DNA of 40,403 nucleotides from Anaerolineae bacterium (lineage in GTDB: Bacteria; Chloroflexota; Anaerolineae; Promineifilales; Promineifilaceae), in the NCBI GenBank assembly GCA_015486215.1, contig WFSA01000072.1, positions 1 through 40,403 on the forward strand, in the 5' to 3' direction. Under the pieces are notes generated by a model, which was not told where the DNA came from, did not search any database, and saw nothing but the letters and a program-made list of their open reading frames with translations. Positions 7,242-40,227 of this stretch are shown piece after piece; the first letter of the stretch is position 1, and each line of letters opens with the position of its first letter. The position numbers and the translations under genes are program-made.

Positions 7242-7256
7242 CACCTTCCTGTTCTT

Positions 7257-7478: not shown

Positions 7479-7492
7479 CATACGTTTCTGGG

Positions 7493-7610: not shown

Positions 7611-7664
7611 CCCTCGTTTCTGCCATCTTTTTTGGAACTGAATATAGGTTTTTCATGTTCTATT

Positions 7665-8154: not shown

Positions 8155-8302
8155 TAGCGATTTAGTACTGAAAGTATAGTGAAAAACATGTATCACGTGA
8201 AAAACGCGAAATTCATCCTTGACTTTCTCAAAACATTCGATTAGTATAGTTGTAAATAGACTATTCGTAACTACGCTATATGCAGTTGAGATTGAGGCTG
8301 AG

Positions 8303-23947: not shown

Positions 23948-25057
23948 CTACGGCCCCAACGTCCCCACATACGTCAACACCTGCCACATCTGCTCCTGAT
24001 CCATCTTCCGCTTCATTGCCGGCATATCATTCAACCCTTCGGCTATGCGGCACAGATATTCGCCGCCATTTTCATGCAGATACGTTTGCACATCTGCATC
24101 CGTCAAATTAGTCGGCACATAAGACAATCCATCCGCCCCAGCCCCATCATCAGCGTGACAACGCACACAATTATCCTCATATAACAGCAGACCAGCGGCG
24201 ATAGCATCCGCATCATCCCACGCAAATGGGTTTGATTGCTCCAGATAAGCCGCATCACACGCTGGTTTTTCATCTTCAGCCACCTCTTCAACGACAAAGG
24301 CAGGCTCTTCTGTTGTACCTTCTGTTCCATCTTCCCCTTCAACGACCGGGGGTGGAATGATCGGGTTATAGGTGAAAGTACGCATGAAATTGACGACCGC
24401 CCACCGCTCCTCTTGGCTCAATCGTGCTTGCCATGAAGGCATATCATCGCTGCCTTGCGTCATCGCGGTAAAGAAGGTGTCGCCCGATTGATTGCTCATC
24501 AATTGGTGGTCAGCGAGATCGGCTACGTTAACAAGCTCGCTTGTTCCAGCCGCTCCATGACACTCAGCGCAATGTTCAGCGTACAACTCTTGCCCGACGA
24601 TTAACGATGCAGTTGGGGCAGCAAAACGCCATACATAATAAACGACATCCCACCGTTCATCCGCACTCAACACGGTGCTGAAATCTGGCACGTCGGCCGT
24701 ATGACCGCTTGTTGTTGCTTGGAAGAACTCGGCGGGCGTTTTGCCATGCCGATAAGCTGTGTCGGTGAAGTCATGCGCGTTGGGAACAGAGCCAGTGCCG
24801 TCTTCAGCGTGACACTCGGCGCAATGTTCCACATATAACGCTTCGCCGCCCTCTGCCGCCGGTGAGGCGGAGGGGTATTCTATAATGAGGGGGTCGGCAA
24901 CGGCCGTTTCTTCTATCATATCATCCGCCATCACAGGGGACAGCGTCGGAATCGGCGTTGCCCCTTTCGGATACGGATTTGGATTTCCCGTACAGGCCGA
25001 CAGCCCCATCAAAACGAGAAATAAACCTGCAAGTACTATATTTTTTCGAGTTAGCAT
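23948..25057 (-). CDS. Triheme c-type cytochrome lipoprotein
   Basis: 369 residues with a lipobox GLSAC (Cys22), so anchored to the outer face of the membrane. Three class-I cytochrome c modules carry CAECH (~79), CAECH (~170) and CVRCH (~295). The first two modules (LYVEHCAECH, LYAEHCAECH) look like an internal duplication, and an acidic Glu-rich linker precedes the third. As the last gene of the ACIII cluster, 59 bp after actE, it is a good candidate for the electron acceptor that carries electrons from the complex to a terminal oxidase, none of which is encoded in the window. Confidence 0.88.
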   Translation of the reverse strand: MLTRKNIVLAGLFLVLMGLSACTGNPNPYPKGATPIPTLSPVMADDMIEETAVADPLIIEYPSASPAAEGGEALYVEHCAECHAEDGTGSVPNAHDFTDTAYRHGKTPAEFFQATTSGHTADVPDFSTVLSADERWDVVYYVWRFAAPTASLIVGQELYAEHCAECHGAAGTSELVNVADLADHQLMSNQSGDTFFTAMTQGSDDMPSWQARLSQEERWAVVNFMRTFTYNPIIPPPVVEGEDGTEGTTEEPAFVVEEVAEDEKPACDAAYLEQSNPFAWDDADAIAAGLLLYEDNCVRCHADDGAGADGLSYVPTNLTDADVQTYLHENGGEYLCRIAEGLNDMPAMKRKMDQEQMWQVLTYVGTLGP

Positions 25058-25116: not shown

Positions 25117-25638
25117 TCAATTCTCCATTGTTAACGTGCGAAGATGATTGACAACATCCCATCGCTCCCGAACGGTTAAATTTTCATATAACGCAGGCAT
25201 CCCTTTCTGCCCTTGCGTGATGGTACGGAATATCTTTCCATCTTCCTGCTTGGCGATATTACTGCCCGTGATGTCTGGCGGCGGATCGGCCTCTGCATCT
25301 TCATAATAGGCAGCAATAGAACCGTCGCCCACACCATCTTCACCATGACAAAGAGCGCAATGGATCGAATATAAAATTTCTCCACGCTGCAAAGAGTGTG
25401 CATCAGCGTTAACGGGGTTATCAGGCAGACTGCCAAAGACAATCGCCTGCCCTTCAATAGAAACTGCCCCTGCCGGCGGCAAGCCGCGATGCCCTTCTTG
25501 ATACCCAGTCGTTGGATTCTCAGCCATATTGGTAGGGATCGGGATTTTGATTATTTGATAGGTAAACAGCAGCCCGACAATAAGAGGAACTGTCAACCCA
25601 GCAAGAATAAGATATGCGCGTTTAGCTTGTCTGCTCAT
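25117..25638 (-). CDS. actE: ACIII subunit ActE (monoheme cytochrome c)
   Basis: 173 residues. An N-terminal hydrophobic segment (~8-27) anchors or exports it, and one heme motif CALCH lies near residue 94 within SIHCALCHGEDGVGDG. GKIFRTITQGQKGMPALYEN supplies the distal Met region. ActE is the periplasmic monoheme subunit of Alternative Complex III. Its start overlaps the actD stop by four bases, showing translational coupling. Confidence 0.9.
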   Translation of the reverse strand: MSRQAKRAYLILAGLTVPLIVGLLFTYQIIKIPIPTNMAENPTTGYQEGHRGLPPAGAVSIEGQAIVFGSLPDNPVNADAHSLQRGEILYSIHCALCHGEDGVGDGSIAAYYEDAEADPPPDITGSNIAKQEDGKIFRTITQGQKGMPALYENLTVRERWDVVNHLRTLTMEN

Positions 25639-26162
25639 AATGTCATCTTCTCCGGACGATGGATATCTTGTCCACCATTGCTTTCCATCGCCGAAACAGC
25701 CGCTTTTTCCTGATTAAGCGGGATGTTCTCCAATAAGACGGACAGCATCCCGCTGGTGACGCGCTTGGTGTAGAATTTCTTCTCAAAACCGGGCACATCA
25801 ATCTCCCATAACACACCGATAAATATAGCGATAACGGTGAACAACATTGTAAAAATATAGGTAATGATCGCCGCTGGCGGGCCGCCTGTGAGCGGGTGAC
25901 CGCTTACATTGATCGGATATAGGCGAGGGGTGACAGACGAAAGGAAAAATCCCGTTGCAAACCCAAGAGCCGATCCCGCCAACACAATCAGCGGCAGACG
26001 AATCCATATATGTTCCCGTCCCAATGATTGCTCAGGGTAGGGGATGGGTGAGATGACCGTGATCTGATCATCTTGCACACCCAAATCGTAAATATCATCA
26101 AGGGCAGCGGCCGTTGCCGTATCATCTTCAAACAGCCCCATCAGATTAATTGTTTTGTTCAT
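25635..26162 (-). CDS. actD: ACIII subunit ActD (two-helix membrane protein)
   Basis: 175 residues from ATG 26162, with GGAGTG upstream. An N-terminal soluble part (LMGLFEDDTATAAALDDIYD) is followed by two membrane segments (~55-76 and ~96-120) with the characteristic SGHPLTGGPPAAIITYIF between them. This matches ActD, the DUF3341-type subunit that packs against ActC at the membrane. A frame extending to 26186 would read into the TGCAAA repeat and is not favoured. Confidence 0.92.
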   Translation of the reverse strand: MNKTINLMGLFEDDTATAAALDDIYDLGVQDDQITVISPIPYPEQSLGREHIWIRLPLIVLAGSALGFATGFFLSSVTPRLYPINVSGHPLTGGPPAAIITYIFTMLFTVIAIFIGVLWEIDVPGFEKKFYTKRVTSGMLSVLLENIPLNQEKAAVSAMESNGGQDIHRPEKMTL

Positions 26163-26173
26163 AAAGCACTCCG

Positions 26174-26205
26174 TGCAAACCTGCAAACTTGCAAATTTGC
26201 AAACT
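26174..26205. repeat. TGCAAAYY octamer array between actC and actD
   Basis: Four consecutive 8-base units (TGCAAACC, TGCAAACT, TGCAAATT, TGCAAACT) fill most of the 42-bp gap. Related arrays lie at 30570-30636, 31177-31211 and 35499-35530, all inside or at the edge of the same respiratory locus. Confidence 0.85.
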
Positions 26206-27629
26206 CAGTCCACCTGCGTAATTGTCACCACTTCCACACGGCCGACTTGGCGCGTGCTAAAGCGCAGTCGCCCTTGCTTGACCTCCCAAACAGGTACATA
26301 CGGAATGACCCGTGTGAAAATCATGTAAAAGAGAATAAATCCAGCAAATGTCATCGCCACGATGCTGATAGTGACCCATGTTGGTTTATAATCACCCCAA
26401 TTGAATGGCATGTAATTTCGCATCAAGTTGCCGGCAACGATCAAGAACCGTTCGATATACATGCCGACATTGACCATTAAAGTCAGAATCAACAAGAAGA
26501 GCGGACTGCGGCGCACTTTTCGGAAGGCCAAGAAGAAGATAGGAATGATATTGAGAACCATCATTGTGATGAATAGAGGCGCAAGATCGCCGTACCATTC
26601 ATCATGCAGCAGTTCAACGGTGATGGGCATATTGCTGTACCATTCCACGATCAGCCCCGCGAACCAGACGTATATCCAAGAGATACCAGCGACGAAGATT
26701 AACTTGCCAACATTGTCGAGATGCTCTTTCCGTAAATAAAAATCAAGTTTCATCCCCCATCGCACCAGCACTAAAATAGTTGCTAACGCTGAAAGGCCAG
26801 AAAAAACGGCTCCGATGATGAAGAAAATCGGCAAAATGGTACTGTTCCAGCGCGGTTGCGTCGTGACAGCAAAATCCCATGAAACGATGGAGTGAACAGA
26901 GAGGAAGATGGGGATAATAACGATGGCGAAGATGCCCAACGCTTTCTCCAATTTATGCCATCCCGCTTCTGTTCCGCGCCATCCTAATGCCATCGCTCGA
27001 TACAGTTTGTACCGCCAGCCGGTTGAATTATCCCGTGCCATGCCCAAATCGGGGATGAGAGCGAGGTAGAGATAGAGGCTGCTGCCCACTAGATAGGTGG
27101 TGATAGCGAGCATGTCCCACATCAACGGGGATTGAAAATTCGGCCACAGGTGGCGGTTATTGGGGTAGGGGAACATCCAGATGACTTTCCACAAGCGTCC
27201 CACATGAATCATGGGGTACATGCCGGCCATCATCAGGGCGAAGGCGGTCATCGCCTCTGCGCCGCGTGTGATAGGCCGCCGCCAATCCGCTTTAAAAATA
27301 CGCAAAACGGCCGAGATCATTGTTCCTGCATGGCTAATACCCACCCAAAACACAAAGGTGGAGATATACATGCCCCAATAGACGGGACGGTTGATGCCGG
27401 CAACGCCGAATCCCCAGCGAATTTGGTATCCCCAAGCGTACAAGCCCCAGAAGAACACGGCCGTTAACACAGCCAGCGTCCCCCAGAACAGCGGTCCCGT
27501 TCTTTTCATCGGTTCCAACATCAAAGCGTTTAGCTCATCGTCAGAGACAGTGGTCAACAAGAGTTGATCTTGTACATCTTCTGGCACGATTACGCCATCG
27601 CTCTTTCTAATTCTTTTAATTTTAGACAC
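26205..27629 (-). CDS. actC: ACIII subunit ActC (NrfD-like quinol-interacting membrane protein)
   Basis: 474 residues, starting at GTG 27629 with AGGAGG nine bases upstream and overlapping the actB2 stop. About ten membrane helices. NrfD/PsrC-type features include FWVGISHAGTMISAVLRIF, RRPITRGAEAMTAFALMMAG, HSIVSWDFAVTTQPRWNST and MYIERFLIVAGNLMRNYMPF. ActC is the integral subunit that receives quinol next to the iron-sulfur subunit. No second NrfD-like gene (actF) is present downstream in this cluster. Confidence 0.94.
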   Translation of the reverse strand: MSKIKRIRKSDGVIVPEDVQDQLLLTTVSDDELNALMLEPMKRTGPLFWGTLAVLTAVFFWGLYAWGYQIRWGFGVAGINRPVYWGMYISTFVFWVGISHAGTMISAVLRIFKADWRRPITRGAEAMTAFALMMAGMYPMIHVGRLWKVIWMFPYPNNRHLWPNFQSPLMWDMLAITTYLVGSSLYLYLALIPDLGMARDNSTGWRYKLYRAMALGWRGTEAGWHKLEKALGIFAIVIIPIFLSVHSIVSWDFAVTTQPRWNSTILPIFFIIGAVFSGLSALATILVLVRWGMKLDFYLRKEHLDNVGKLIFVAGISWIYVWFAGLIVEWYSNMPITVELLHDEWYGDLAPLFITMMVLNIIPIFFLAFRKVRRSPLFLLILTLMVNVGMYIERFLIVAGNLMRNYMPFNWGDYKPTWVTISIVAMTFAGFILFYMIFTRVIPYVPVWEVKQGRLRFSTRQVGRVEVVTITQVD

Positions 27630-28389
27630 GAGTTTCGCCTCCTTTGAGATAGATAACTGCCGGCCCTGTACCTAAGTTATCGAGCAAGCGGAAAGCACGG
27701 GAGCTGCGAGCCTCTTGACTGACTGCACTTTCGGAATCGTTCAAATTTCCAAAGGTGAACGCATCAGTCGGGCAGGATTGAACACAAGCGGGCGCAATTT
27801 CTCCATCTTGTACATCGCGTCCCTCTGCCTTTGCATCCTCTTGGGTGCGGCGGATACGCTGTACGCAAAAGGTGCATTTTTCCATAATACCGCGTGAACG
27901 AACCGTCACGTCAGGATTAAGCTGTTCGGCTAAAGGTTCGGGATAGATGGGGTCAAACCAATTGTACATGCGTGTTTTGTACGGGCAGGCCGAGCCGCAG
28001 AAGCGAGTACCGATACAACGGTTATAAATCTGGCCGTTCAACCCCTCATCGCTGTGATAAGTGGCGTAAACGGGGCAGACCGCTTCGCAAGGTGCGTCGG
28101 TGCATTGTTGGCACATGACAGGCATGAATTTTGCTTTGACATTGGGGTATTCCCCTTCCCAATACCGTTCGATACGCAGCCAATGGGCAGAACGGCCGTA
28201 TGCCGTCTCTTCTTCGCCCACCACTGGGACATTATTTTCAGCATGACAAGCGACAACACATGCCTGACACCCGGTACATTTATCCAAATCAATAGATAAA
28301 CCCCAGCGTGTTTCAGCAGTTGTCTCCCCGCCATGCCCGCCGCCTTCATTTTCGGGCGTATTAAGTGAGTTCTTCTTTGCCGTGGCCAT
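27622..28389 (-). CDS. actB2: ACIII iron-sulfur subunit ActB2 (split ActB C-terminal part)
   Basis: 255 residues with four ferredoxin-type clusters. The first is CTGCQACVVAC (Cys38, 41, 44, 48); the second includes Cys93, 96, 101 and 105. The third reads CIGTRFCGSAC: the second cysteine is Thr128, which in ACIII marks the [3Fe-4S] cluster. CTFC and CVQSCP complete the set. In most ACIII operons this is the C-terminal half of a fused ActB; here it is a separate frame overlapping actB1 by 29 bases, with GGAG before ATG 28389. The full motif set and good start argue for a true split rather than a frameshift. Confidence 0.93.
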   Translation of the reverse strand: MATAKKNSLNTPENEGGGHGGETTAETRWGLSIDLDKCTGCQACVVACHAENNVPVVGEEETAYGRSAHWLRIERYWEGEYPNVKAKFMPVMCQQCTDAPCEAVCPVYATYHSDEGLNGQIYNRCIGTRFCGSACPYKTRMYNWFDPIYPEPLAEQLNPDVTVRSRGIMEKCTFCVQRIRRTQEDAKAEGRDVQDGEIAPACVQSCPTDAFTFGNLNDSESAVSQEARSSRAFRLLDNLGTGPAVIYLKGGETRV

Positions 28390-30559
28390 GTAAACTCTCC
28401 AATCTTGCTAACTTCTCTTTTCGTCCAGTCCGTTCGATGCGAACGCGAGCAGATGCCCACGCTAACGCCCCCGTCTTTGGATCGGTTATCGTTCCCACTA
28501 AATCCATCGGATTGCTGCCGCGTTTTTGGGCGTAACGGCCGTAATCCTCATGCCCTTGTCCCACCGGAATCGCCACCACATCGGGGCGGATGCCGGGATA
28601 GACAACAACGCGGGCTTCAATCTCCCCATTTGGCGAGATGATTTTGACAACATCATTATCATGCACCCCATATTTGTGAGCCGTTTGGGGGTTCATCTCA
28701 ACCCATGTATTCCAAGCCGCCGTCGTCATCGGATCGGGAGCCTCTTGCAGCCATGGCAAGTTCGCGCCCCGTCCATCACTCAAGCTGACGCTCGGATAAG
28801 GATGGAGGAAGAGGGGGTATTCCCGTGCCCTGCCATCAAAATTAGGAGCGGCGACGGGGAGCGGGCTGTTTTTGAACCCAACAGCTTCTGGTTCGGCACT
28901 CAATTTTTTGTTTGCCCACCAGCCGCCATGTTGACGGAACGCTGCCCAGAACTCTTTGCCCGTTTTTGTCGTGTATGGAGTAAGACTGGAGCCGTAAATA
29001 GAGCCGCTCATATCTTCCATAAACAGGATTTCGCTTTCCCACGGCAACGCTTTTGCCGCCGCGCCGCCCATCTCTTTTGCCAACGCCATGATCACTTCCG
29101 TTGTTGAACGGGTGTCGTACATGCGCTCGACGATGGGTTGCTGGCTGGCAACGGCTGGCCGGTCGCCGCCTGATGAGGCGACTTGGTAGCCCCAGCTTTC
29201 CAGATAGGTGTTATCGGGCAGGATGAGATCGGATTGAACGGCCGTTTCATCCACAAATGAGCTAAACGAGACAATATAAGGAACGTTGGCGAGTGCCTCT
29301 TTGAAAGCGGCCGCTTGCGGCAGTTCAAAAACTGGATTTGCGCCATGTACAAACAGAATCTCGACTTCGCCCCCATTCATCCGCTCAATCAACGCCTCCA
29401 CATCGGCGAAGGAGTTGGGCATCGGGGCTGCTTCCAACGCTTCCGCTGGAGAATTGGGTGAGATATACACGCCCCCTTCTCGTCCCAATTGGTTCAAAAT
29501 AAGATTGAGGGAGTGAATGGCTAAATAGCTGTCATACCCATTGCTGTGTCCTGCAGGAGTGCCGCCGGGAACGACGACTGGGTGGTCAGCATTTGCTAAT
29601 ATGCGAGCCATCTTCTTCAAGGTATCCAACTCTATACCGCTTGCATGAGCGATCTCTTTTATATCTATATTGTGGTACATGCCAGAGAAGGAGCCGCCGC
29701 CAAGAATTTTCCCTAAGGCGAGAGCGACGAGACCGTCCATTCCCGGCCGAATCGGTACCCATTGATCGGCTGTGGCCGCTGTGGCCGACATGCGCGGCTC
29801 AAATTGAACCAGATAGCCGCGCCCGCCCGTCTGGCCGCGAAACTTGCTGTAAGCACGGCTGTAAGAGACGGGAGACATCCACGTTTCGACGAAATTGGCA
29901 CCAAATGAGAAGATCACGTCAGCGTTAGCGATGTCATAAATCGGTTGCTGCATCGTGCCAAACAATTTCTTGGCCGCTTTTGCGCTCGTTGCCCGCCCTT
30001 CGAGGGCGGCGTGTAAATCGTATTGCAACGGCGGCGGTGCGCCAATCGCTTCCAGCCAGCGGCTGGTGACATAATAGAGATTGTCGGCCATTACGCCGCC
30101 AAAAAAAATGATATTGGCGGGATCGGCTGCTTCTATTTTGTCCATCAGGCTGCTTAACGCTGTTTCCCAATGGAGGGGTTCAAAAATGCGTGATTCACGG
30201 CCGTTTTGTTTGACAGCATTTCGCAGACGGTCGGGGTTATAGAGAGCTTGCAAGCCTGCTTGTCCCCGCGCACATGTTTTGCCATCATTGAGTGGATAGC
30301 TGGGATTCCCTTCGATTTTCTTCGCACGGCCGTTAATCGTCCGCACCATAATTCCACATCCAGCCGCACACATACGGCATGTTGTCGCATACCATGTTGC
30401 TTTGCCCGGTAATGCCTCTTCTGGCGGCACAACATACGGTTCAAAATGTTCACCGACTTTTTTAGCCGCGACGGGCATCGCACCAACAGTTGCTCCTGCT
30501 GCTGCCGCCCCGCCAACCAGCTTCAAAAAACTTCGGCGTGATAATGTTGCTTTCTTCAT
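28361..30559 (-). CDS. actB1: ACIII molybdopterin-oxidoreductase-like subunit ActB1
   Basis: 732 residues from ATG 30559 (AAGGATA upstream). A twin-arginine signal (SRRSFLKLVGG) implies folded export. The protein follows the molybdopterin oxidoreductase fold, including DVIFSFGANFVETW, VQFEPRMSATAATADQWVPI, a typical VVVPGGTPAGHSNGYD region and a C-terminal dinucleotide-binding-like barrel (VEMNPQTAHKYGVHDNDVVK). Residues Cys61, 64, 68 and 96 form a C-x2-C-x3-C-x27-C motif able to bind an extra iron-sulfur cluster. ActB of studied ACIII lacks molybdenum cofactor and is regarded as structural. Together with ActB2 it replaces fused ActB. Confidence 0.92.
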   Translation of the reverse strand: MKKATLSRRSFLKLVGGAAAAGATVGAMPVAAKKVGEHFEPYVVPPEEALPGKATWYATTCRMCAAGCGIMVRTINGRAKKIEGNPSYPLNDGKTCARGQAGLQALYNPDRLRNAVKQNGRESRIFEPLHWETALSSLMDKIEAADPANIIFFGGVMADNLYYVTSRWLEAIGAPPPLQYDLHAALEGRATSAKAAKKLFGTMQQPIYDIANADVIFSFGANFVETWMSPVSYSRAYSKFRGQTGGRGYLVQFEPRMSATAATADQWVPIRPGMDGLVALALGKILGGGSFSGMYHNIDIKEIAHASGIELDTLKKMARILANADHPVVVPGGTPAGHSNGYDSYLAIHSLNLILNQLGREGGVYISPNSPAEALEAAPMPNSFADVEALIERMNGGEVEILFVHGANPVFELPQAAAFKEALANVPYIVSFSSFVDETAVQSDLILPDNTYLESWGYQVASSGGDRPAVASQQPIVERMYDTRSTTEVIMALAKEMGGAAAKALPWESEILFMEDMSGSIYGSSLTPYTTKTGKEFWAAFRQHGGWWANKKLSAEPEAVGFKNSPLPVAAPNFDGRAREYPLFLHPYPSVSLSDGRGANLPWLQEAPDPMTTAAWNTWVEMNPQTAHKYGVHDNDVVKIISPNGEIEARVVVYPGIRPDVVAIPVGQGHEDYGRYAQKRGSNPMDLVGTITDPKTGALAWASARVRIERTGRKEKLARLESLHGHGKEELT

Positions 30560-30569
30560 AGTATATCCT

Positions 30570-30636
30570 TCGGAGTTTGCAAGTTTGCAAGCCTGCAAGT
30601 CTGCAACTTCACCTGCACACCTGCACACCTGCTACT
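30570..30636. repeat. TGCAAG/TGCACA octamer array between actA and actB1
   Basis: Runs of GTTTGCAAG, CCTGCAAG, TCTGCAAC and CCTGCACA at 8-base spacing occupy nearly the whole intercistronic gap, ending close to the actA stop (30632-30634). Related to the arrays at 26174, 31177 and 35499. Confidence 0.8.
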
Positions 30637-31162
30637 TATGACATACAAGACAATCCCACAAATGCGGGGCAATATCTTCATGTTGTTGTTCGTGACAATC
30701 CAGACACCAGCCCATGTCCATTTTTTCCATTGGTGCTGCTAAATCCATCTCGCCGATGTCGCCATGACACTCTTCACAAGCCAAGCCGCTGATCACATGC
30801 GGTTGATGGCTGAAATAGACAAAATCAGGCTGTTTATTGACCCGTTCCCACGGGATGGGTTCATTATTGTTCCAATATTCAGTGACAAGCTGTACGTCAG
30901 CGTTATCTGTGGCGATGGTTTGGTGACAACCGATACATTTTTGTACCGATGGCACACCTGCCACAGGTGAACGCCCTGCATTAGAATGACAATACAGACA
31001 TTCCATACCCGCATCAATGTGGACTTTGTGGCTGTAATCCACAGGTTGACTTTCAGACGCACCAGCCGATTGTTGGCTATAATAGCCGCCGACCAAAACG
31101 GCCGTGACCAAAAATACAGCCAGTAAAATAAATGGAACTTTCCGTCGTTTAACTTGAGCCAT
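30632..31162 (-). CDS. actA: ACIII subunit ActA (pentaheme cytochrome c)
   Basis: 176 residues starting at ATG 31162, with AAGGAAC five bases upstream. A single N-terminal membrane segment (~10-28) precedes five heme motifs: CLYCH, CIGCH, CEECH, CLDCH and CLVCH. DYSHKVHIDAGMECLYCHSN and VYFSHQPHVISGLACEECHG are characteristic of ActA. It supplies the heme wire that takes electrons from ActB2 to ActE or to soluble cytochromes. An upstream in-frame extension reads through the TGCAAA array and lacks conservation features. Confidence 0.94.
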   Translation of the reverse strand: MAQVKRRKVPFILLAVFLVTAVLVGGYYSQQSAGASESQPVDYSHKVHIDAGMECLYCHSNAGRSPVAGVPSVQKCIGCHQTIATDNADVQLVTEYWNNNEPIPWERVNKQPDFVYFSHQPHVISGLACEECHGDIGEMDLAAPMEKMDMGWCLDCHEQQHEDIAPHLWDCLVCHK

Positions 31163-31176
31163 AATGTTCCTTTGAG

Positions 31177-31211
31177 AGTTTACAAACCTGCAAACTTGCA
31201 AACCTGCACGT
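31177..31211. repeat. TGCAAACC octamer array between TPR gene and actA
   Basis: GTTTACAAACC, TGCAAACT, TGCAAACC and TGCACGTT at 8-base steps, directly upstream of the actA ribosome site. Confidence 0.8.
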
Positions 31212-31214
31212 TTG

Positions 31215-32117
31215 CTACTCTGTCCCGCCCCCGTCTCCAATGTGACTGTTCTCTTCTTGTTGTTCATACTCTACAAGAGAACTTAACAATGCCTCTGCCT
31301 GATGTTTTCCTTCTTCATCGTCAGTCATGCCGATGTAGATGGTCAGGTCAGCGGCGGCGGCAGGCAGATTGCTTAAATTCATATAGGCGACAGCCCTGTT
31401 GAAGTAGGGGGCTGGCGCATCGGGTGAAAATTCAATCGCTTTGTGGAAATCTTCCAGAGCCTTATCATTTTCGCTTTTTTCTAAATATAAAACGCCGCGA
31501 TTAAAATAAGCGGCCGTCAGCTCTGGATTTAACTCCAGCGCGTAACTAAAATCTTCCATCGCCAAATCGGGTTCGCCCATATTAAGGAACGCTTGACCGC
31601 GATTGACATAGGTGGCTGCATAACCAGGGTCTAATTCAATTGCTTGATTAAAATCTTCGAGAGCCGTTGCCGGCCGCCCCATTGTGGCGTAAGTGGTTGC
31701 CCGTGCTGCAAACAGTTCGGGCATATGGGGGTTAGCCGAGATGCCGCTCTCAAAAGCGTCTAACGCATCGGCATAATCGCCTCGTTCAGCATGAATAATA
31801 CCTTTGTAATAATACGCTTGCGCCGCCGCATTCACATCAGAAGCGATGGCAATATCTAATGATTCTAACGCTTCGTCTACCTCACCCCGTCCAGCTTGCT
31901 CTAACGCTAGTTTGATAAAGTCATTGGTAGAACCGTTTTCGTTTTCGGTCTCTGTTGTGTCTGTAGTTGTGGGAATGTCGTCGTGGTAAGGATCGGATGA
32001 GGAACGGTTATATAACCATAATCCGCCGCTTATGATGATTAATGCGGCTCCTATTCCGATAATAAGCCATTGCCAAGGGAAGGAACGGCCGTTTTTAGGG
32101 AGTGTTTCTTTTGTCAT
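31215..32117 (-). CDS. Membrane-anchored TPR protein of the ACIII locus
   Basis: 300 residues from ATG 32117 with GAGGCT upstream. One membrane segment (~14-35) is followed by an acidic Thr/Glu-rich linker (~40-65) and about six tetratricopeptide repeats (~67-280), for example YYYKGIIHAERGDYADALDA and YVNRGQAFLNMGEPDLAMED. TPR proteins are protein-protein scaffolds. Its place immediately before actA suggests a role in assembling the complex or recruiting cytochromes; that is inference. It is not a standard ACIII subunit. Confidence 0.88.
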   Translation of the reverse strand: MTKETLPKNGRSFPWQWLIIGIGAALIIISGGLWLYNRSSSDPYHDDIPTTTDTTETENENGSTNDFIKLALEQAGRGEVDEALESLDIAIASDVNAAAQAYYYKGIIHAERGDYADALDAFESGISANPHMPELFAARATTYATMGRPATALEDFNQAIELDPGYAATYVNRGQAFLNMGEPDLAMEDFSYALELNPELTAAYFNRGVLYLEKSENDKALEDFHKAIEFSPDAPAPYFNRAVAYMNLSNLPAAAADLTIYIGMTDDEEGKHQAEALLSSLVEYEQQEENSHIGDGGGTE

Positions 32118-32312
32118 TAACTAGCCTCATTTGAATTTAGTGAAGAAAGCAGTGTTGAACACCTATATTAACACGTTGATCTTTTGTCTTGTTGTTATGA
32201 GAACGGTCTGTAGATTTACAAACTACACTGGCTTCCTACTCTAATTTCGTTAAAATACTCTGTCAGCTTAGGCGAGCAAGTGTCCGCACCCTTACCCGCC
32301 AATGCTAACGAG

Positions 32313-32347
32313 AAAGGTACAACCATCTCCCAAATGGTTGTACCTTT
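32313..32347. terminator. Terminator-like hairpin
   Basis: AAAGGTACAACCAT (32313-32326) pairs perfectly with ATGGTTGTACCTTT (32334-32347) and is followed by further T residues on the plus strand. On the minus strand, the direction of the respiratory genes, the trailing sequence is TTTCTC, so it may partly separate the dodecaheme gene from the TPR-act genes. Confidence 0.7.
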
Positions 32348-32356
32348 TTTTGTCGA

Positions 32357-32402
32357 CTTCATCCTAACGCTTTCCCCTTATGGGAAGAGCATTAGGATGA
32401 AG
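32357..32402. terminator. Hairpin just after the dodecaheme cytochrome gene
   Basis: CTTCATCCTAA (32357-32367) pairs with TTAGGATGAAG (32392-32402), with inner pairing of GCTTTCCCC to TGGGAAGAGC. It lies 11 bp past the stop at 32413 and is the first possible stop for that transcript. Confidence 0.65.
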
Positions 32403-32412
32403 ATTGGTCATA

Positions 32413-35073
32413 CTACTCTTTCTTTGACATAAACATGCCGCCAGCACCGATGAGTGCACCGCCGATCAAAGCAAGAATAACGTAAAGAGAGTTGCCGCCG
32501 CCAGATTGCTCGGCTGCGCCGCTATCTTCTGGCATAGATTCAACAGTCGCCTCTGCATTCGCCAATTCTGACTCTGCTTCGTCGCGTGCTGCTTCTGCTG
32601 CTGCCAAATCTGCTTCTAGGCTTTGAACTTCGTCATCACTGCCAGCCGCATCGGCTGTCAAGGTTGCGATCTCTTCTTGTGCAGTCATCAACTCTGCTGT
32701 TGCCGCTGCTAACTCATCAGCGTCGCCGCCGTTGACTGCATCTTTCAACAGTTGGTTCATCAAATCAATGTGGTCATCGTTAGAAACGATTTCGCCATAT
32801 TTGGCGACAACTGCGTCGGTCCAGAAGTCGCTGTCAGCCATATTGGTATGGCAGCCCATGCAGACACCAGTCCGTTCCATACGGTCACGCTGGTCTTGCG
32901 TGAGTGGGCCTGATGCCGGCCAGTGAGAGCCAACCGTTTGCATCTGTTCGCCTGTTTCTGGGTCAACAACCTGCGTCAAATCCATTGGTAAATCAGGAAT
33001 CGCCTGAATTTGGGTCTGATATTGTTGTGGCAAGATGTTGCCGTCATTGTCACGCAAATCAACCACGAATCCATCGTCGTATCCCAACATGAACTTGCCG
33101 CCGCCTTCGCCATATCCCAATGCTTTGGGATCGCTATGGCATGATTCACAGGAGCGGGCTTCACGACCAACCGTATGCGGTTGTGCGGGAGCGATATCCA
33201 AGCCGCGTTGACCATTCTCGCCGCCGCCTTCTTCGCCGGGCAGAGTGTGCCCGATCACGTTATTGGCGATATTTGTGCCATCGGGGCCGATAACGGTGTA
33301 GATGACTTGGCAGCCAGGAATAATTGGGGTGACGCGCCCTTCACCATTGATACCGAGAATGGGGTTTTCCCAACGGAGGAAGGAGCGGCCTTCATGGATT
33401 TTACCGGGAAGAACGAGGCTCTTGTCGGCAACACCGCTTGCATTGCGGGAGTTACCAACAGCAACCCAATCTGTACCTGCTTGGCCTTCGGAGTAATCAG
33501 CGGTGACGTGGCAGCCGTAACATTGCGGTGCCCAATCTGCGTGACAGGAGTAACATTCTAATTTGTCTTTATGCGCTTGGATTTTATCCATCGCTACTTC
33601 TGCGTCGCGGGATTTCCATGTGCCAGCTTCTTTGATACCTTTCAAGGTGGGAACGGTGTAGTCACGTCCTGTTGCTGAATGGACAACAACGTCATCGCCG
33701 CGCCGTACGATATTACCAAATGGATTGCCGCGTGCGGTAAGAATGTAGCCGTCTTCGACATCATACTCTGTGCCAAAGTCCATACCATCTAATGTTTCTG
33801 TTGTTGTGCCGCGTGCGTCTTCGGACATGACACCAGCAAGTAACTCTTCGCCGAAGCCGATGGGGAGTTCCCATGGATAAGCGTCGGTTGTGCCGTGACA
33901 GTCAGAACATTCGATCTCGACCTGTGCCAGCGTGGTGCCGAACAGGTTGCCGTCACCGTGCATGTCGATGCTGGTGTGGCAATCTTGGCAGAGCATTCCG
34001 CCTTCGGGGTTGCCATCGCGGCTGATGGGATCGTGATGTAGGTCGTCTTTGATGTAGAGGTATTTTTTGGTGTGCAGTTTTGGCTGTCCCATACCTGTTT
34101 CATCGGTTGGCGTGCCATAGGGGAATTCCATGATACCTTCAAAGCTTACGCCAATACGCTTGCCGCGATTATGGCATGAGTTACAGGTCTCAACGGGGAT
34201 GCCGCCTGTTTCGCGTGTACCTTGAATTTTGTGGCTTAACATATGGCCGGGTTCGTCAACGGGGATGGTCGGATCGCCGCCCTCATAGAAGCCTTCGTTG
34301 CTATAGAGGATGTGGCAGGAGGAGCAGCCCATGCCGCGCCAATCGCCGCGCTTGTCGCGGGGCGGTGTACCAACGTGACAGCGTTGGCATTGGTTGCGTT
34401 GATAGGTGAAACCAGCTAATTCTGGGTTGGCAACGATCTCTTCTACGGTTGGATTGGGCATCTCATCCATGTGATTCAGAATTTGATCGGGATACGCTTC
34501 GATGAGTGCTTCCATATACGCTTTGTAGGTGTCGGTGCCGAAGATGGGTGTTGGGCCGTCGGTGTCGTCGATGGTGTAGTTGCCGTATTTATGTTCGCGT
34601 TCTTCACCATATTCGCCATGGATGCCCCATGCCCACATATTACCTTGAATTTTACCTGCTTCGGTGTTCATTAAGGAACGTTCCATCGCGTAGGTGTAAT
34701 CCAGATGACATTGACCACAAGTTTGATCGGCGACATTGTTTGCGCCGGGATCGGGGAAGAATTCCCCTACTTCGGCAACCATATGAGCTGCATCTGCGTC
34801 GGTCGCGTCTTCATCGCCGCCATGACAGACAACACATCCGCCTTGATTATCGATTTGTCGTCCCATATCTGATTCTGGATCGACAATATCTTCAATACCT
34901 TCATGGCAGGAAAGACAGCCTTCGGCTGCTTCGTCTTGGGCTGCGGGTGCGCTCATTTTTACTGAGGCAACGGCCGTTGACGTACTTTCATCTGCCGAAG
35001 AAGCCAATGCGATACCAACTGCTGTCAACAAAATGACGAGAGCGGCTACGATAGGGAGTGAATATTTCTTCAT
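32413..35073 (-). CDS. Dodecaheme c-type cytochrome with C-terminal coiled coil and membrane anchor
   Basis: 886 residues from ATG 35073 (AAGGAGAAATAATC upstream). A signal peptide or anchor (~4-25) is followed by twelve CxxCH motifs: CLSCH, CVVCH, CGQCH, CQRCH, CSSCH, CNSCH, CQDCH, CSDCH, CYSCH, CYGCH, CESCH and CMGCH. The last ~130 residues form an Ala/Glu-rich coiled coil (LEADLAAAEAARDEAESELA), a Gly/Ser linker and a final membrane helix (LYVILALIGGALIGAGGMFM) ending in MSKKE. It faces the outside of the membrane and could exchange electrons with ActA or with an external donor or acceptor. I do not recognise an enzyme family such as HAO or NrfA. It heads the minus-strand respiratory cluster. 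Confidence 0.9.
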   Translation of the reverse strand: MKKYSLPIVAALVILLTAVGIALASSADESTSTAVASVKMSAPAAQDEAAEGCLSCHEGIEDIVDPESDMGRQIDNQGGCVVCHGGDEDATDADAAHMVAEVGEFFPDPGANNVADQTCGQCHLDYTYAMERSLMNTEAGKIQGNMWAWGIHGEYGEEREHKYGNYTIDDTDGPTPIFGTDTYKAYMEALIEAYPDQILNHMDEMPNPTVEEIVANPELAGFTYQRNQCQRCHVGTPPRDKRGDWRGMGCSSCHILYSNEGFYEGGDPTIPVDEPGHMLSHKIQGTRETGGIPVETCNSCHNRGKRIGVSFEGIMEFPYGTPTDETGMGQPKLHTKKYLYIKDDLHHDPISRDGNPEGGMLCQDCHTSIDMHGDGNLFGTTLAQVEIECSDCHGTTDAYPWELPIGFGEELLAGVMSEDARGTTTETLDGMDFGTEYDVEDGYILTARGNPFGNIVRRGDDVVVHSATGRDYTVPTLKGIKEAGTWKSRDAEVAMDKIQAHKDKLECYSCHADWAPQCYGCHVTADYSEGQAGTDWVAVGNSRNASGVADKSLVLPGKIHEGRSFLRWENPILGINGEGRVTPIIPGCQVIYTVIGPDGTNIANNVIGHTLPGEEGGGENGQRGLDIAPAQPHTVGREARSCESCHSDPKALGYGEGGGKFMLGYDDGFVVDLRDNDGNILPQQYQTQIQAIPDLPMDLTQVVDPETGEQMQTVGSHWPASGPLTQDQRDRMERTGVCMGCHTNMADSDFWTDAVVAKYGEIVSNDDHIDLMNQLLKDAVNGGDADELAAATAELMTAQEEIATLTADAAGSDDEVQSLEADLAAAEAARDEAESELANAEATVESMPEDSGAAEQSGGGNSLYVILALIGGALIGAGGMFMSKKE

Positions 35074-35373
35074 GATTATTTCTCCTTTGTCAATAGGATT
35101 CCTATTGACTACCATCAGCGTTATTGGGTTTTTATAGATGCACTACCGCTGATTTCATATAGTGCATTGTAATTTCTGCAAATTTGTCATTACAACTTCC
35201 ATCTATGATTGGATATTTGCCAGAGAATTTAAGTTCTGCTTAATAAATATCTCCGCTGCGGACAAATCATTTTGTATGACAAACAATACTGGGTGGCATT
35301 GTTTGTTATCAATGTCATCTACAGACATTTCTACAATGCTATTTATTTTGCCGTATAGTTGGCAAAGTCGAAT

Positions 35374-35412
35374 CACCCTATAGGGTGGTGTGTCATCATC
35401 CTATAGGATGAT
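35374..35412. promoter_or_regulatory. Two CCTATAGG-centred palindromes, probable operators
   Basis: CACCCTATAGGGTG (35374-35387) and ATCATCCTATAGGATGAT (35395-35412) are both perfect palindromes sharing the core CCTATAGG. Their centres are 23 bp apart, about two helical turns. They lie between the divergent ACIII-locus and two-component genes, so the NarL-type regulator at 37929 or another dimeric factor is a candidate binder. Confidence 0.6.
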
Positions 35413-35498
35413 ATTCGTTGGGGGGGGATAACAGAGATACAATGAGTTGGAGGGTGGAGATGGAGGATGGAGATAGAGGGTAGGGCAGGTTTACAATA

Positions 35499-35531: not shown

Positions 35532-37808
35532 ATGTTTGATCGAATTCGGGCAAAATTATTAGTGGCGTTTTTGATTGTGGTTATGGTTCCGTTGATTGGT
35601 ACGGGGCTGTATGGCAATTGGGTGACGAGCCGTATTATTAGTGAACGGGCTGTCGAGTCGGCGCGGAATGATGTGCGCTTGCGGACGGAGCAGATCGCGG
35701 CGTTTTTGAATCATGTGCGCGGGGATGTGTTGTACGTTTCTCGTTTGGACAGTTTGCAGTTTTTAGGTGAGGCATTGAGTGTAAATGATGAGGAGATGAT
35801 TGGTTTTTGGCGCAAGCAGGCACAGCGCGAATTTTTGATTTTCTCAGCTTCCCGTCCCGCATATTATCAGGTGCGGTATTTGGATGCGTCTGGACAAGAG
35901 CAGGTGCGTGTGGATTCCGACGGCCGTTTTTCTGAAGCCATCCATACAGAAAGTTTGCAAAACAAAGGGGATAGATATTACTTTCAAGAAGCGATGAAGC
36001 TGCCGCGCGGCGGTATTTATGTCACCCCGCTTGATTTGAACCGCGAAAATGGTGAGATTGAAAAGCCATATATCCCTGTCATTCGGTATGCGACACCGAT
36101 GTATGATGACGAAGGGCAGCAGCGGGGCATTTTAGTTATTAATGTGTATGCCGATTCTTTCCTTACTTTTGTGAACGGGGATAATCAAACGGAGGAACCG
36201 CTTATCATGGTCAGCCAAGATGGGTATTATTTGGTTCACCCTGACCAATCACGTTTGTGGGGGGATGCGAGCGGGTTGGGGACGGGTAAAAACCTCTTAC
36301 AAGATTATGGTGAGCAGGCGGATGGTATTTTGTCGGGGGAAGAGGGGTTGTATCAAACATCGTCGCAAGTTGTGGTGTATACGCCGCTTTATCCAGTACG
36401 TTCTGATCGGGATAAGTATTGGGTTATTATGCGGGATTCGCCAAAGTATTCGATGTTGGGGGCGGTGAATGAGTTTCGGGTAACGGCCGTTGCTATTCTC
36501 ATTCTGGCTACTTTTGTAGCGATGATGATGGCCTTTGCCCTTGCTAATCAATTATCGGCCCCCATTTTGCAATTGCAGGAAGGGGTGGAGCGGTTTAGCC
36601 AGGGTGAGCTGGATGAGCCGATTCCAGTAAGAACGGGTGATGAAATTGGGCAGTTGACGGCTGCTTTTAACCAGATGGCTGGTAAAATCAATACCCATGT
36701 CTCCCAATTGAAAAAGTTGAATATCAGCAGCCAGCGTGTCAGTTCAGGCTTGAATAGACAAGCGACGTTGACCGCTATTTTGGAATCAGTTGACGATCTG
36801 TTTGGAGCTGATTGTTCGGTTATAAGTTTTATGGAAGCGGGGCAAACAGCTATGCCGCTTTTGGAGATGGCGATTGGTGATGAAGTGTGGCTGGAGCGGC
36901 GGGGGTCGAAAACGGCCGTTGCTGCTGGACGGAAAACGGTGGCGATTTCCACTTGGTCGTCGGGAAAATTAGAAGATGACGGCTACTTCTGTTACGCACC
37001 GTTGCAAATTAACCCTGAAAATCAAGGATTGATCGAGCTGTACAGCGACGATTCCGCCTTGCGCGAACCAGCATGTGGGAGTCTGCTCTTTACCTTGGCG
37101 GTCGAATCCTCCATCGCCCTTGAAAATATCACCCTGTATGAGACAGTTGATAAGCATAAAGAGCGGCTGGAAAATTTGGTGGAGCAATTGATTGACGCGC
37201 AGGAAGCGGAACGTAAATATGTCGCTTATGATTTGCACGACGGCCTTATTCAATATCTGGTGGCAGCGCGGATGCACCTTAGCAAATTAAGCGCAATTTG
37301 CAAAGATGATGCCAAGCGGGAAGCGTTGCGTGAGACAATGGAACATTTGACACAGGCGGTGCAAGAGGGGCGGCGTGTTGTGGAAGGTCTGCGGCCAACA
37401 TTGCTCGATGATTTGGGCTTGATTCCCGCTCTGCACGCATTGGCACGGGACGTGGCGCGGGTTGCTGGCTGGGATGTCACATTTGATGATCATCTGGGGG
37501 AGAATCGTTTGTCGCCTGCGGTTGAGTTGACCGCTTTTCGGGTGACACAAGAGGCGTTGAGCAATGTACGCAAGCATGCGGATGCGTCGGCGGTGACGGT
37601 TCGATTGATAGAGGAACACGGCCGTCTCTTCGTGTCAGTTCAAGATAATGGTATCGGATTTGATCAAGATAAGTTGGAACAGTACAGCCAAAGTTTTGGT
37701 CTGACCAGCATGAAGGAGCGGGCGGCGATGCTGGGCGGAAAATTTGAAATCGAAAGCAAAAAGGGGGCGGGAACGGCCGTTAAACTGGAAATACCGATTG
37801 AACAATGA
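35532..37808 (+). CDS. Cache-HAMP-GAF sensor histidine kinase (NarX/DegS class)
   Basis: 758 residues. TM1 (~9-27) and TM2 (~318-342) flank a large extracytoplasmic dCache-type sensor (ARPAYYQVRYLDASGQEQVR; YFQEAMKLPRGGIYVTPLDL; MVSQDGYYLVHPDQ). A HAMP domain (~345-395), a GAF-like domain (~410-540) and a HisKA_3 dimerisation domain follow; the phospho-His is His569 in AYDLHDGLIQYLVAARMHLS. The ATPase domain has QEALSNVRKHA, DNGIGFD and GLTSMKERAAMLGG. It should sense a small molecule outside the membrane and phosphorylate the NarL-type regulator encoded 120 bp downstream. Its position divergent from the cytochrome cluster suggests respiratory control. No clear ribosome site precedes ATG 35532. 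Confidence 0.93.
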   Translation: MFDRIRAKLLVAFLIVVMVPLIGTGLYGNWVTSRIISERAVESARNDVRLRTEQIAAFLNHVRGDVLYVSRLDSLQFLGEALSVNDEEMIGFWRKQAQREFLIFSASRPAYYQVRYLDASGQEQVRVDSDGRFSEAIHTESLQNKGDRYYFQEAMKLPRGGIYVTPLDLNRENGEIEKPYIPVIRYATPMYDDEGQQRGILVINVYADSFLTFVNGDNQTEEPLIMVSQDGYYLVHPDQSRLWGDASGLGTGKNLLQDYGEQADGILSGEEGLYQTSSQVVVYTPLYPVRSDRDKYWVIMRDSPKYSMLGAVNEFRVTAVAILILATFVAMMMAFALANQLSAPILQLQEGVERFSQGELDEPIPVRTGDEIGQLTAAFNQMAGKINTHVSQLKKLNISSQRVSSGLNRQATLTAILESVDDLFGADCSVISFMEAGQTAMPLLEMAIGDEVWLERRGSKTAVAAGRKTVAISTWSSGKLEDDGYFCYAPLQINPENQGLIELYSDDSALREPACGSLLFTLAVESSIALENITLYETVDKHKERLENLVEQLIDAQEAERKYVAYDLHDGLIQYLVAARMHLSKLSAICKDDAKREALRETMEHLTQAVQEGRRVVEGLRPTLLDDLGLIPALHALARDVARVAGWDVTFDDHLGENRLSPAVELTAFRVTQEALSNVRKHADASAVTVRLIEEHGRLFVSVQDNGIGFDQDKLEQYSQSFGLTSMKERAAMLGGKFEIESKKGAGTAVKLEIPIEQ

Positions 37809-37830
37809 GCAATGAACAATTGTTCATTGC
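37809..37830 (+). terminator. Palindrome directly after the kinase stop
   Basis: A perfect 22-bp palindrome (half-site GCAATGAACAA) followed by TATTTTTG. It could act as a weak terminator or attenuator between kinase and regulator. Confidence 0.6.
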
Positions 37831-37837
37831 TATTTTT

Positions 37838-37917
37838 GTATCTTCTCAGTATTCTAAGGAGACTTGACAAATTAGGAAAATTTGTCAAGTCTTGTCCACG
37901 ATTTATTGAGAAGACAC
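37838..37917. repeat. MITE-like element, family M1, copy 5 (between kinase and regulator)
   Basis: An 80-bp form bounded by GTATCTTCTCA and TGAGAAGACAC, with inner arms GACTTGACAAATT and AATTTGTCAAGTC. It ends 11 bp before the regulator start, so it splits what would otherwise be a tight two-gene operon. Confidence 0.9.
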
Positions 37918-37928
37918 CTATTTTTATT

Positions 37929-38630
37929 ATGGACGATAAGAAAATTCGCGTAGCAATCGCAGATGATCATGGGGTAGTGCGGGCTGGAATTATTAGTTTG
38001 TTAGAGGATTCCGGGCTGAATGTGGTTGGATCGGCGAGCGATGGCTTTGAAGCGGTTGAATTAGCGCGTGAACTGCTACCCGATGTCATGCTCTTGGATA
38101 TTCGTATGCCCAATATGGATGGATTACGCGCGTTGGCAGCGATCAAGAGCGAAAACCCGCAAATAATCGTCCTTATGTTGACCACCTATGCCAATCCAGA
38201 ATATCTAGCACGGGCGGTCTCGTTGGGAGCGGCGGGGTATCTATCCAAAGAGGTCGATCCGCAGCGGATTCCCCGCGCGGTGCGGACTGCGGCGGCGGGC
38301 GACTCTTTGCTGGATCGTGACTTATTGTTAGCGGCATTGGAAAGCGGGCGAACGGCCGTATCCACACGAACAAACTCAGCCATCCCGTCCATCCCCATCC
38401 CCACGCCCACGCCCGAACCGACCGAACTGCCCGCCGAAACATTGACCGACAAAGAGACGACAATTCTCAAACTCATCGTCTCTGGGTTGAACAATGGTGC
38501 CATCGCCGACACACTTTCCATCAGCATCAGCACGGTCAAAACGCATATGCGTCACATTTTCCGTAAATTAGGCGTTTCTGATCGGACGCAAGCGGCCGTT
38601 TGGGCGATGAGGCATGGGGTGGCAAAATGA
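37929..38630 (+). CDS. NarL/FixJ-family response regulator
   Basis: 233 residues. I chose ATG 37929 because the longer frame reads through repeat M1. Receiver: ADDHGVVRAG (acidic pair ~12-13), phospho-Asp57 in VMLLDIRMPNMDG, and the GAAGYLSKEVD lysine. A proline/threonine-rich linker (IPSIPIPTPTPEPTE) leads to a LuxR-type helix-turn-helix (LTDKETTILKLIVSGLNNGA; ISISTVKTHMRHIFRKLGVS). It is the natural partner of the upstream kinase. Its targets may include the palindromes at 35374-35412. Confidence 0.94.
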   Translation: MDDKKIRVAIADDHGVVRAGIISLLEDSGLNVVGSASDGFEAVELARELLPDVMLLDIRMPNMDGLRALAAIKSENPQIIVLMLTTYANPEYLARAVSLGAAGYLSKEVDPQRIPRAVRTAAAGDSLLDRDLLLAALESGRTAVSTRTNSAIPSIPIPTPTPEPTELPAETLTDKETTILKLIVSGLNNGAIADTLSISISTVKTHMRHIFRKLGVSDRTQAAVWAMRHGVAK

Positions 38631-38745: not shown

Positions 38746-40227
38746 ATGTTCAAACTCACATTGCCCGCAAATATCCTGCTGGGCATCTCATGGCTCTGGC
38801 TGTATCGCCCTGTTTTCAATTATTTACAGGTTATTTTTCAGCGGGAAGATTTTCGTACTAACCAGATTGTGCTGCTATTGCTGCTTGTGTTGTTGGCGAT
38901 GCAGGTGCGGGATAATGGGGAACGGCCGTTTTCCCGTTTTCTTTCCCCGCCGCACAAAAGCCATTTGCCTCTTTTATTGCTGCTTGGCGCGTCCATCACC
39001 TTTTTAATTGGTGAGCGATGGTTGAACGTCAACACCATTTCCGCCGCGCTCTGCTTTTTGAGCGGCTATGGGCTGCTCGGTTTATGGATGTCTCCCGCCG
39101 CATGGCGAAAAGGGCTGCCCGCCGCCCTGTTGCTCGTCGGCGTACTTCCGTTTGGCGAGCATCTGCAAACCTTTGTCGGCTATCCGTTGCGCTACTTCTC
39201 GGCTGAACTGGTGCGGCAAGGATTGGCCGGTTTGCACATCGCCTCACTCGGCACGGAGACGATTTTGGTGTTGGAGAATGGAGTCGCCCTCATTGATTCC
39301 CCGTGCAGCGGCATCAAGAGCATTTGGACGGGGACGCTCTTCTTTTTGGCGGCGATTTGGCTGGAAAAACGGCCGTTGCGCCTCAATCTTCTCCCCATCT
39401 ACACCCTGTTCATCACCCTTTTACTGCTCTCCAACATTATCCGCATCGCCCTTCTGGTGCTGGCTGGACAGGTGATGAACTGGCCGACAGTCGCCCGTCT
39501 TATTCATTTGCCATTGGGCGTGTTGGGCTTCGCGCTCGCCTGCATTGCAGTGCTGATGCTCGTCCGCCGTCTGCCCGCTCATCCCATCCTGCCCCAAACG
39601 CTCCCGCCGACAGCCCCATCCCTCACCCCTATGCTGCTCCTCACTTTATGGGGGATGGCGGCCATTTATACGCCCCGTCCACCGACTGTTTTTGCTGTGG
39701 ATGAAACGGCCGTTTTCCACTTTCCCGCCGACATGCAGACAGAACTATCCCCCTTGAAGGCGGACGAGGAGGCGTGGTTTAAGAAAGATGGAGCCGATAT
39801 GGCCGTGCGTTACACATTTCAATGGCACGCCCTCAGCGGCTCGATGATTCTCGTTAGCAGTCACACATGGCGCGCCCACCATCGCCCCGAACGCTGTTTT
39901 GAAGTGTACGGCTTGGCGATTGAACGCTCCGTCACTTTTCTGGTTGATGAGCAATTCCCTGTCAAACAGGTCACCTTTGCCAACAATGGGCGGCAAGCGG
40001 CGTATTGGTTCCAAACGAATGACCTCATCACCGACGATTACGGCACCCGCATCTGGCATGACCTGCCGCCTGAGCGGAGCCGCTGGCTGCTTGTCTCTAT
40101 TTTATTTGATGATAAAACGGGTGTTACAACAGAGGAGGAAAATGAATTTTATAGAATGGTTGAGGGAGCAGTCCACGAACTGCTCCTAGCTGAATTTAAG
40201 CAAGGATTGGTTCTTCCTGACGCATAA
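38746..40227 (+). CDS. Exosortase with C-terminal EpsI-like domain (XrtO-like)
   Basis: 493 residues. The N-terminal ~290 residues hold about eight membrane helices and the exosortase triad: Cys187 (LIDSPCSGIKSIW), Arg233 (LLSNIIRIALLV) and His254 (RLIHLPLGVLGFA). The C-terminal ~190 residues are extracytoplasmic and EpsI-like, with SSHTWRAHHRPERCFEVYGL. Exosortases cleave and anchor proteins with PEP-CTERM-type tails, often linked to exopolysaccharide export. No clear PEP-CTERM substrate or polysaccharide gene is in the window, so it would act on proteins encoded elsewhere. The start ATG 38746 lacks an obvious ribosome site. Confidence 0.9.
   Translation: MFKLTLPANILLGISWLWLYRPVFNYLQVIFQREDFRTNQIVLLLLLVLLAMQVRDNGERPFSRFLSPPHKSHLPLLLLLGASITFLIGERWLNVNTISAALCFLSGYGLLGLWMSPAAWRKGLPAALLLVGVLPFGEHLQTFVGYPLRYFSAELVRQGLAGLHIASLGTETILVLENGVALIDSPCSGIKSIWTGTLFFLAAIWLEKRPLRLNLLPIYTLFITLLLLSNIIRIALLVLAGQVMNWPTVARLIHLPLGVLGFALACIAVLMLVRRLPAHPILPQTLPPTAPSLTPMLLLTLWGMAAIYTPRPPTVFAVDETAVFHFPADMQTELSPLKADEEAWFKKDGADMAVRYTFQWHALSGSMILVSSHTWRAHHRPERCFEVYGLAIERSVTFLVDEQFPVKQVTFANNGRQAAYWFQTNDLITDDYGTRIWHDLPPERSRWLLVSILFDDKTGVTTEEENEFYRMVEGAVHELLLAEFKQGLVLPDA

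Follow-up and report, generated by a model that had tools for sequence, protein, structure and literature searches.

Certain Chloroflexota appear to tether a twelve-heme electron carrier above the membrane, beside a quinol-oxidising complex

The closest described counterpart of the cytochrome considered here is ExtM of Geobacter, a 12-heme protein whose gene lies with those for a Rieske protein and a cytochrome b; its family is among nine cytochrome families that are conserved across six Geobacter genomes (PMC5877670, available part). According to the Geobacter authors, the protein linking quinol-oxidising complexes to the large ext cytochromes is uncharacterised (PMC5877670, same part). The Carboxydothermus OmhA/SmhB and Thermincola OcwA proteins, from single-membrane metal reducers, are large exported multihemes of cells that lack an outer-membrane porin route; they are likened to our protein by description, as secreted or surface proteins, and the available part of the source reports no linkage to alternative complex III (ACIII) for them (PMC7829351). 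Within the same broad Chloroflexota group, Ardenticatena maritima ARMA_0580 is an exported, membrane-associated multiheme that is stained at the surface (PMC5808234, available part).

The protein studied here resembles ExtM of Geobacter sulfurreducens in its 12 predicted c-type hemes and in homology over most of the ExtM profile (positions 6-511), but differs in the stalk and membrane helix at its C-terminus, in its TPR partner and, within its own lineage, in having ACIII as a neighbour. Genes of sister lineages lie beside ExtP, ExtQ and Rieske homologues, as extM lies with extO/P/Q in Geobacter (PMC5877670, available part). The neighbouring cluster is like ACIII of the Rhodothermus/Chloroflexus type (ActABCDE) in its ActA-, ActB-, ActC-, ActD- and ActE-like genes; unlike the standard ACIII operon, as given in the available parts of PMC8076601 and PMC9386147, ActB is split and a stalked 12-heme cytochrome and a TPR protein are added. 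A stalked cytochrome with 12 hemes encoded alongside ACIII is described in none of the titles and abstract openings returned by searches of the open-licence literature. The core is a known kind of cytochrome; new are the stalk and anchor it carries and its position beside ACIII. The first-pass annotation had called the architecture unrecognised, which does not hold for the ExtM-like 12-heme head; the description stands for the stalk and anchor. The ACIII partner, too, is new.

The window, that is, the whole stretch of DNA analysed, is a complete contig of 40,403 bases belonging to a 4.1-Mb genome. The open reading frame of the cytochrome spans 32413-35115 on the minus strand, and a start at 35073 is better because AAAGGAG lies just 5' of it and the signal helix begins there. 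The extent proposed in the first-pass annotation (32413-35073) is therefore right, as is its count of twelve CxxCH motifs in the 886-aa product; shuffles of the same composition contained on average 0.02 such motifs, with a maximum of 2 (20,000 shuffles). The features of the locus are as follows.

23948-25057, minus strand: triheme cytochrome c at the end of the act cluster, also present in L034
25117-25638, minus strand: ActE-like monoheme cytochrome c
25635-26186, minus strand: ActD (PF11821, 9.9e-22, over the cut-off)
26205-27629, minus strand: ActC (NrfD family)
27622-28389, minus strand: ActB2-like iron-sulfur subunit
28361-30628, minus strand: ActB1-like molybdopterin-type subunit with a Tat signal
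30632-31267, minus strand: ActA-like pentaheme cytochrome c (five CxxCH; best NCBIfam match QrcA, 110.8 bits, below the cut-off)
31215-32117, minus strand: TPR protein with an N-terminal membrane helix, the constant neighbour (domain match, neighbour survey)
32308-32405, minus strand: pair of strong RNA hairpins in the gap separating the cytochrome gene from the TPR gene (z -9.1 and -5.2)
32413-35073, minus strand: twelve-heme cytochrome c, 886 aa (ExtM-like head, stalk, C-terminal membrane helix)
32431-32487, minus strand: membrane helix predicted from hydropathy at the C-terminus, residues 863-881, with KKE as the tail behind it
32536-32769, minus strand: helical, heptad-patterned stalk, residues 769-846 (heptad counts, AF2 helices)
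34999-35073, minus strand: N-terminal hydrophobic signal region, residues 1-25 (AF2 helix 5-25)
35532-37808, plus strand: divergent sensor histidine kinase (dCache-like sensor, HAMP)
37812-38630, plus strand: LuxR-type response regulator
38746-40227, plus strand: exosortase O (XrtO; 355 bits, cut-off 250), on the divergent side near the cytochrome

The signal, stalk and membrane assignments come from hydropathy, from counts of heptad positions and from models of low confidence. The N-terminal helix has a 19-residue mean hydropathy of 2.71. The last 120 residues comprise a helical segment of low complexity that is patterned in heptads, then a membrane helix (from residue 863; 19-residue mean hydropathy 2.09) and the terminal KKE. 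Within the stalk, I, L, M, V or F occupies 9 of 22 a/d positions vs 7 of 56 other positions in the best of seven registers, and AF2 placed helices at 765-807 and 813-845 with only moderate confidence. The coiled-coil-like stalk and membrane anchor proposed earlier are both borne out by this heptad pattern and hydrophobic helix.

The heme head is, judged by comparison with the NF040943 profile, a distant homologue of Geobacter ExtM, the 12-heme cytochrome of the ext cluster. ExtM was the best NCBIfam match of the window protein (5e-70, 236.5 bits) and far ahead of other families, at a score short of the equivalog cut-off of 800 bits. The match covers positions 6-108 and 129-511 of the 599-position profile, several relatives extend it to 581-584, and three relatives matched the profile at 2.8e-72, 5.2e-67 and 9e-61. 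Membership of the OmcA/MtrC decaheme family was not supported: its model TIGR03507 gave 11.3 bits vs a cut-off of 209.3, and PF22113 of the same family gave 27.2 bits vs a cut-off of 30.

Among 396 genomes of the class, 55 contained ExtM matches at 1e-25 and none contained a match above 800 bits. These ExtM-like proteins are of two kinds, a long one with 12 hemes and a short one with 7-9 hemes that covers about two thirds of the profile from its start and mostly has an N-terminal hydrophobic helix (by eye). On contig 165, the window's own genome also encodes one short relative, which has 9 hemes and an N-terminus like that of a lipoprotein. In L040-L042, a short 7-heme ExtM-like protein ends a cluster, which in L041 comprises a molybdopterin enzyme, an FeS protein, an NrfD protein, a diheme c and an ExtP-like cytochrome b. 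ARMA_0580 (430 aa, 7 hemes) is like the short kind in size and N-terminal helix; a kinship is a guess from its description (PMC5808234, available part).

The alignment comprises 22 long members that share 53-80% identity with the window protein (L037, L038, L044, L045, L063 and L061, the last with a frameshifted tail, lie outside it). The 12 proximal histidines of the motifs are invariant in all 22, although one heme site reads CxxxxCH in some relatives; 10 further histidines are invariant in 22 of 22 and two more in 21 of 22. By arithmetic rather than from a structure, this suggests 12 candidate distal histidines for 12 hemes, as in a putative all bis-His wire. Large non-heme inserts are also strongly conserved among the long members.

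In 20 of the 22 rows the C-terminus is complete and anchored: all 20 have a stalk of 36-128 residues, a helix whose mean hydropathy is 2.05-3.01 and a tail with net positive charge. The other two are L033, truncated at a contig end, and L035, which ends without stalk or anchor. A conserved head, a stalk of free length and a retained anchor form the pattern expected for a tethered domain. A scan of genome contigs returned three loci, among them L035 (53% identical), whose N-terminus we take to be lipobox-like. The relatives include an Ardenticatenaceae and an Anaerolineae bacterium, both Chloroflexota. In a phylum sample searched at 1e-60, the long cytochrome was found in 1 of 400 genomes, namely the window's own.

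Structure and remote-homology searches added little. AF2 models reached a mean pLDDT of 44.5 with the 22 rows, and 58.0 (pTM 0.63) for the head only with 45 rows. With the low-confidence model, Foldseek gave no match at E <= 0.001 and VIA-align a single row at Z 2.6. Sequence search of the PDB found no clear relative of the window protein (best 0.63); the 45-row profile gave a weak match (0.0073) to octaheme nitrite reductase, and the sole match of the 22-row profile was a myosin coiled-coil fusion (0.059), on the stalk.

Sorting by an exosortase was considered owing to the GGG-helix-KKE tail and the nearby XrtO gene, and was dropped. XrtO was detected in just 1 of 25 genomes with the cytochrome vs 18 of 273 without it (19 of 298 class genomes), and the tail is retained in the rest, which rejects this idea.

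The first-pass annotation had linked the cytochrome to ACIII, and this linkage is genuine in the window and recurs in other genomes. ActA, ActB1 and ActB2 are closest to Qrc in NCBIfam, yet the PF11821 match of ActD identifies the cluster as ACIII and not Qrc. ActB is encoded by two genes (27622-30628) in the window and in L034 and is fused in the loci of genus g74; the window ActB1 retains a match to the Fe4S4 domain of molybdopterin enzymes. ActF, the second NrfD-type subunit, was not seen among the window proteins scanned. Elsewhere in the window, a NACHT domain is fused to a formylglycine-generating-enzyme-like domain (2390-5293, plus strand).

Placement at the head of the ACIII locus stood in part. 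The gene is adjacent to the TPR-act genes, but 295 bp separate its stop from the TPR gene, and this gap holds both hairpins, which are in tandem and unusually stable. The tandem hairpins are possibly a terminator or attenuator; a terminator scan that requires a T-run listed none, and no T-run follows the two hairpins. Given the gap and the hairpins, the cytochrome may have its own transcript here. Rfam gave no matches.

Two perfect palindromes of 18 and 14 bp with the core CCTATAGG, their centres 23 bp apart, lie at about 35370-35415 between the cytochrome and the divergent kinase. They are possibly sites for a regulator, and were absent upstream of 24 relatives and so confined to the window. 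Of the 27 other loci, many of them cut by contig ends, 11 have homologues of the kinase, the regulator or both on the upstream side.

Gene order was compared across 27 loci plus the window, most of them on draft contigs; L037 and L045 are two pieces of one genome, and L047 (same contig as L034), L039-L043 and L046 fall outside the table. Five of the 27 had no room beyond the cytochrome gene. In all 23 Anaerolineae-class loci with room (22 and the window), the TPR gene came next on the same strand, so that the earlier suggestion of the TPR protein as a partner is well motivated.

Twenty loci, window included, extend past the TPR gene to another gene, and 11 of these have an ACIII or a Rieske/cytochrome b set there. 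In the window and L034, ACIII comes immediately; in L045, L054, L055, L056 and L057, COX1 precedes the act genes; and L059, L060, L062 and L065 have a set comprising a GltD-like flavoprotein, cytochrome b and Rieske protein. Two more run off the contig after the first gene of such a set (COX1 in L052, the GltD-like gene in L058). COX1 thus lies right behind the TPR gene in six loci, all of genus g74. The remaining seven (L036, L049, L050, L051, L061, L064 and L066) show no complex III there; the genes in its place are those for a glutamyl-tRNA reductase, a ThiI-like protein, a PEP carboxylase, a SpoIIE-domain protein and a phosphodiester glycosidase and, on the other strand, an HtrA-like and a nucleotidyltransferase-domain gene.

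Several genomes with such unlinked loci have ActD elsewhere, which indicates that the linkage is not obligatory. ActD was found anywhere in 18 of 25 genomes with the long cytochrome vs 42 of 273 without it, a contrast inflated by shared ancestry. Since ACIII exists in genomes that lack the cytochrome, the cytochrome is an accessory and not a subunit.

Further hemoproteins are encoded upstream in L033 and L063. In L033, a gene (6834-8714) whose product combines a monoheme c domain with a cytochrome D1 domain separates the 12-heme gene from that of the response regulator. In genome G161 (L063, 10398-17047), four multiheme genes with 7, 8, 13 and 7 CxxCH motifs lie directly upstream of the 12-heme gene; two of the products exceed the MtrC/MtrF domain cut-off and one has a NapC/NrfH-type domain.

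The association with ACIII is recurrent without being exclusive, because one half of the tree of heads pairs with an ExtP/ExtQ/Rieske cytochrome b complex. ExtO/P/Q-type Rieske-cytochrome b neighbours were present in four relatives plus one partial locus and were not beside the window gene, where ACIII is found instead. In all four Rieske-type loci, ExtP was the closest model for the cytochrome b (283-284 bits, with the cut-off at 290). The membrane protein after cytochrome b matched ExtQ (4.7e-12) in L060, the one locus tested. In the maximum-likelihood tree, all ACIII-linked rows fell in one half (13 rows, not all of them linked; support 100/99) and all Rieske-linked rows in the other (8 rows, 86/78). 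L033 was the closest relative of the window protein. The tree was rooted at its midpoint and does not fix the order of partner states.

The simplest reading of this split is that a single ExtM-type module retained its TPR protein and either switched quinol-oxidising complexes or was itself recruited by one. The cytochrome would then be a stalk-borne relay that receives its electrons from the complex III type of its lineage and most likely sends them outward. A more specific version is tentative, and we would not expect it to hold in full: a single-membrane electron-export module, made of a stalked ExtM-type head and TPR dock, would have swapped an Ext-type Rieske/cytochrome b for the unrelated ACIII, or the reverse, and ACIII would feed extracellular transfer directly.

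As a whole explanation, an outward relay fed by the neighbouring complex III has in our estimate about an even chance (roughly 0.5). The data show the architecture, the kinship of the head to ExtM, the constant neighbours, the split of partners and the invariant heme motifs; the direction of electron flow, the acceptor, the docking and the surface or extracellular position are inferred. The secreted 12-heme head would stand on its helical stalk, held to the membrane by the C-terminal helix; with one membrane, this would place it in or above the wall. It would accept electrons from the quinol-oxidising complex encoded alongside, delivered in the window lineage by ACIII via ActA, ActE or the triheme cytochrome and in the sister lineages by the ExtP/ExtQ/Rieske cytochrome b complex. 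Electrons would then leave the membrane, most likely for a partner cytochrome or an acceptor at the cell wall or outside it, and the membrane-anchored TPR protein would assemble the cytochrome or dock it to the complex. No Omp85 match was found in the window's own genome (96% complete; controls positive in 7 of 14), which fits a single-membrane envelope. Ardenticatena, of the same broad group, is described as presumably single-membraned, with surface multihemes that it uses in both directions (PMC5808234, available part). The G161 cluster, with two proteins over the MtrC/MtrF cut-off, favours extracellular transfer. Against an outward relay, 7 of 20 loci have no complex III, two hairpins part the window gene from TPR-act, the heme ligands were counted from sequence, and ST-P-ST mineral-binding motifs are not conserved among the relatives.

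The COX1 gene behind the TPR gene in six loci fits an oxidase-linked role equally well. The cytochrome could then be a hub or electron buffer passing complex III electrons to the cell's own terminal oxidase or to exoplasmic reductases, with no extracellular transfer, and the COX2-type cytochromes after ACIII in L055 and L057 and the D1-type, monoheme-domain cytochrome directly upstream in the close relative L033 would suit such a role. We nevertheless regard it as unlikely: twelve stalked hemes exceed the needs of a short hop to an oxidase, the single COX1 of the window genome is on another contig, and the cytochrome D1 domain had no match in that genome. Electrons might also enter rather than leave, from an outside donor (Fe(II), a mineral or a partner cell) through the cytochrome to ACIII or an oxidase. 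The Rieske-type loci do encode a GltD-like NAD(P)-binding flavoprotein, which in that clade would receive electrons by reverse flow, and Ardenticatena maritima performs both anodic and cathodic transfer (PMC5808234, available part). The sequence does not fix direction, and no known Fe(II) oxidase was identified among the genes examined; entry seems to us quite improbable.

A catalytic role, in which one heme is the active site for selenite, tellurite, nitrite or a similar substrate, is brought to mind by the selenite/tellurite operon name of the best model and by the strongly conserved inserts. It is the more doubtful because the published phenotype is that of the porin mutant extI, and the authors suggested the selenoprotein ExtKL as reductase (PMC5877670, available part). 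In addition, the twelve conserved extra histidines could ligate all hemes, and OTR and NrfA models were not among the matches of the window protein, so that we consider a reductase very unlikely.

Known acceptors of ACIII are small cytochromes, HiPIP and oxidases, and with an outward relay the range would grow to include a large multiheme. The pairing of a conserved ExtM-like protein with either type of complex III suggests that ExtM heads accept electrons from quinol-oxidising complexes in general, and the arrangement would offer a design, open to testing, by which electrons could leave a cell with a single membrane.
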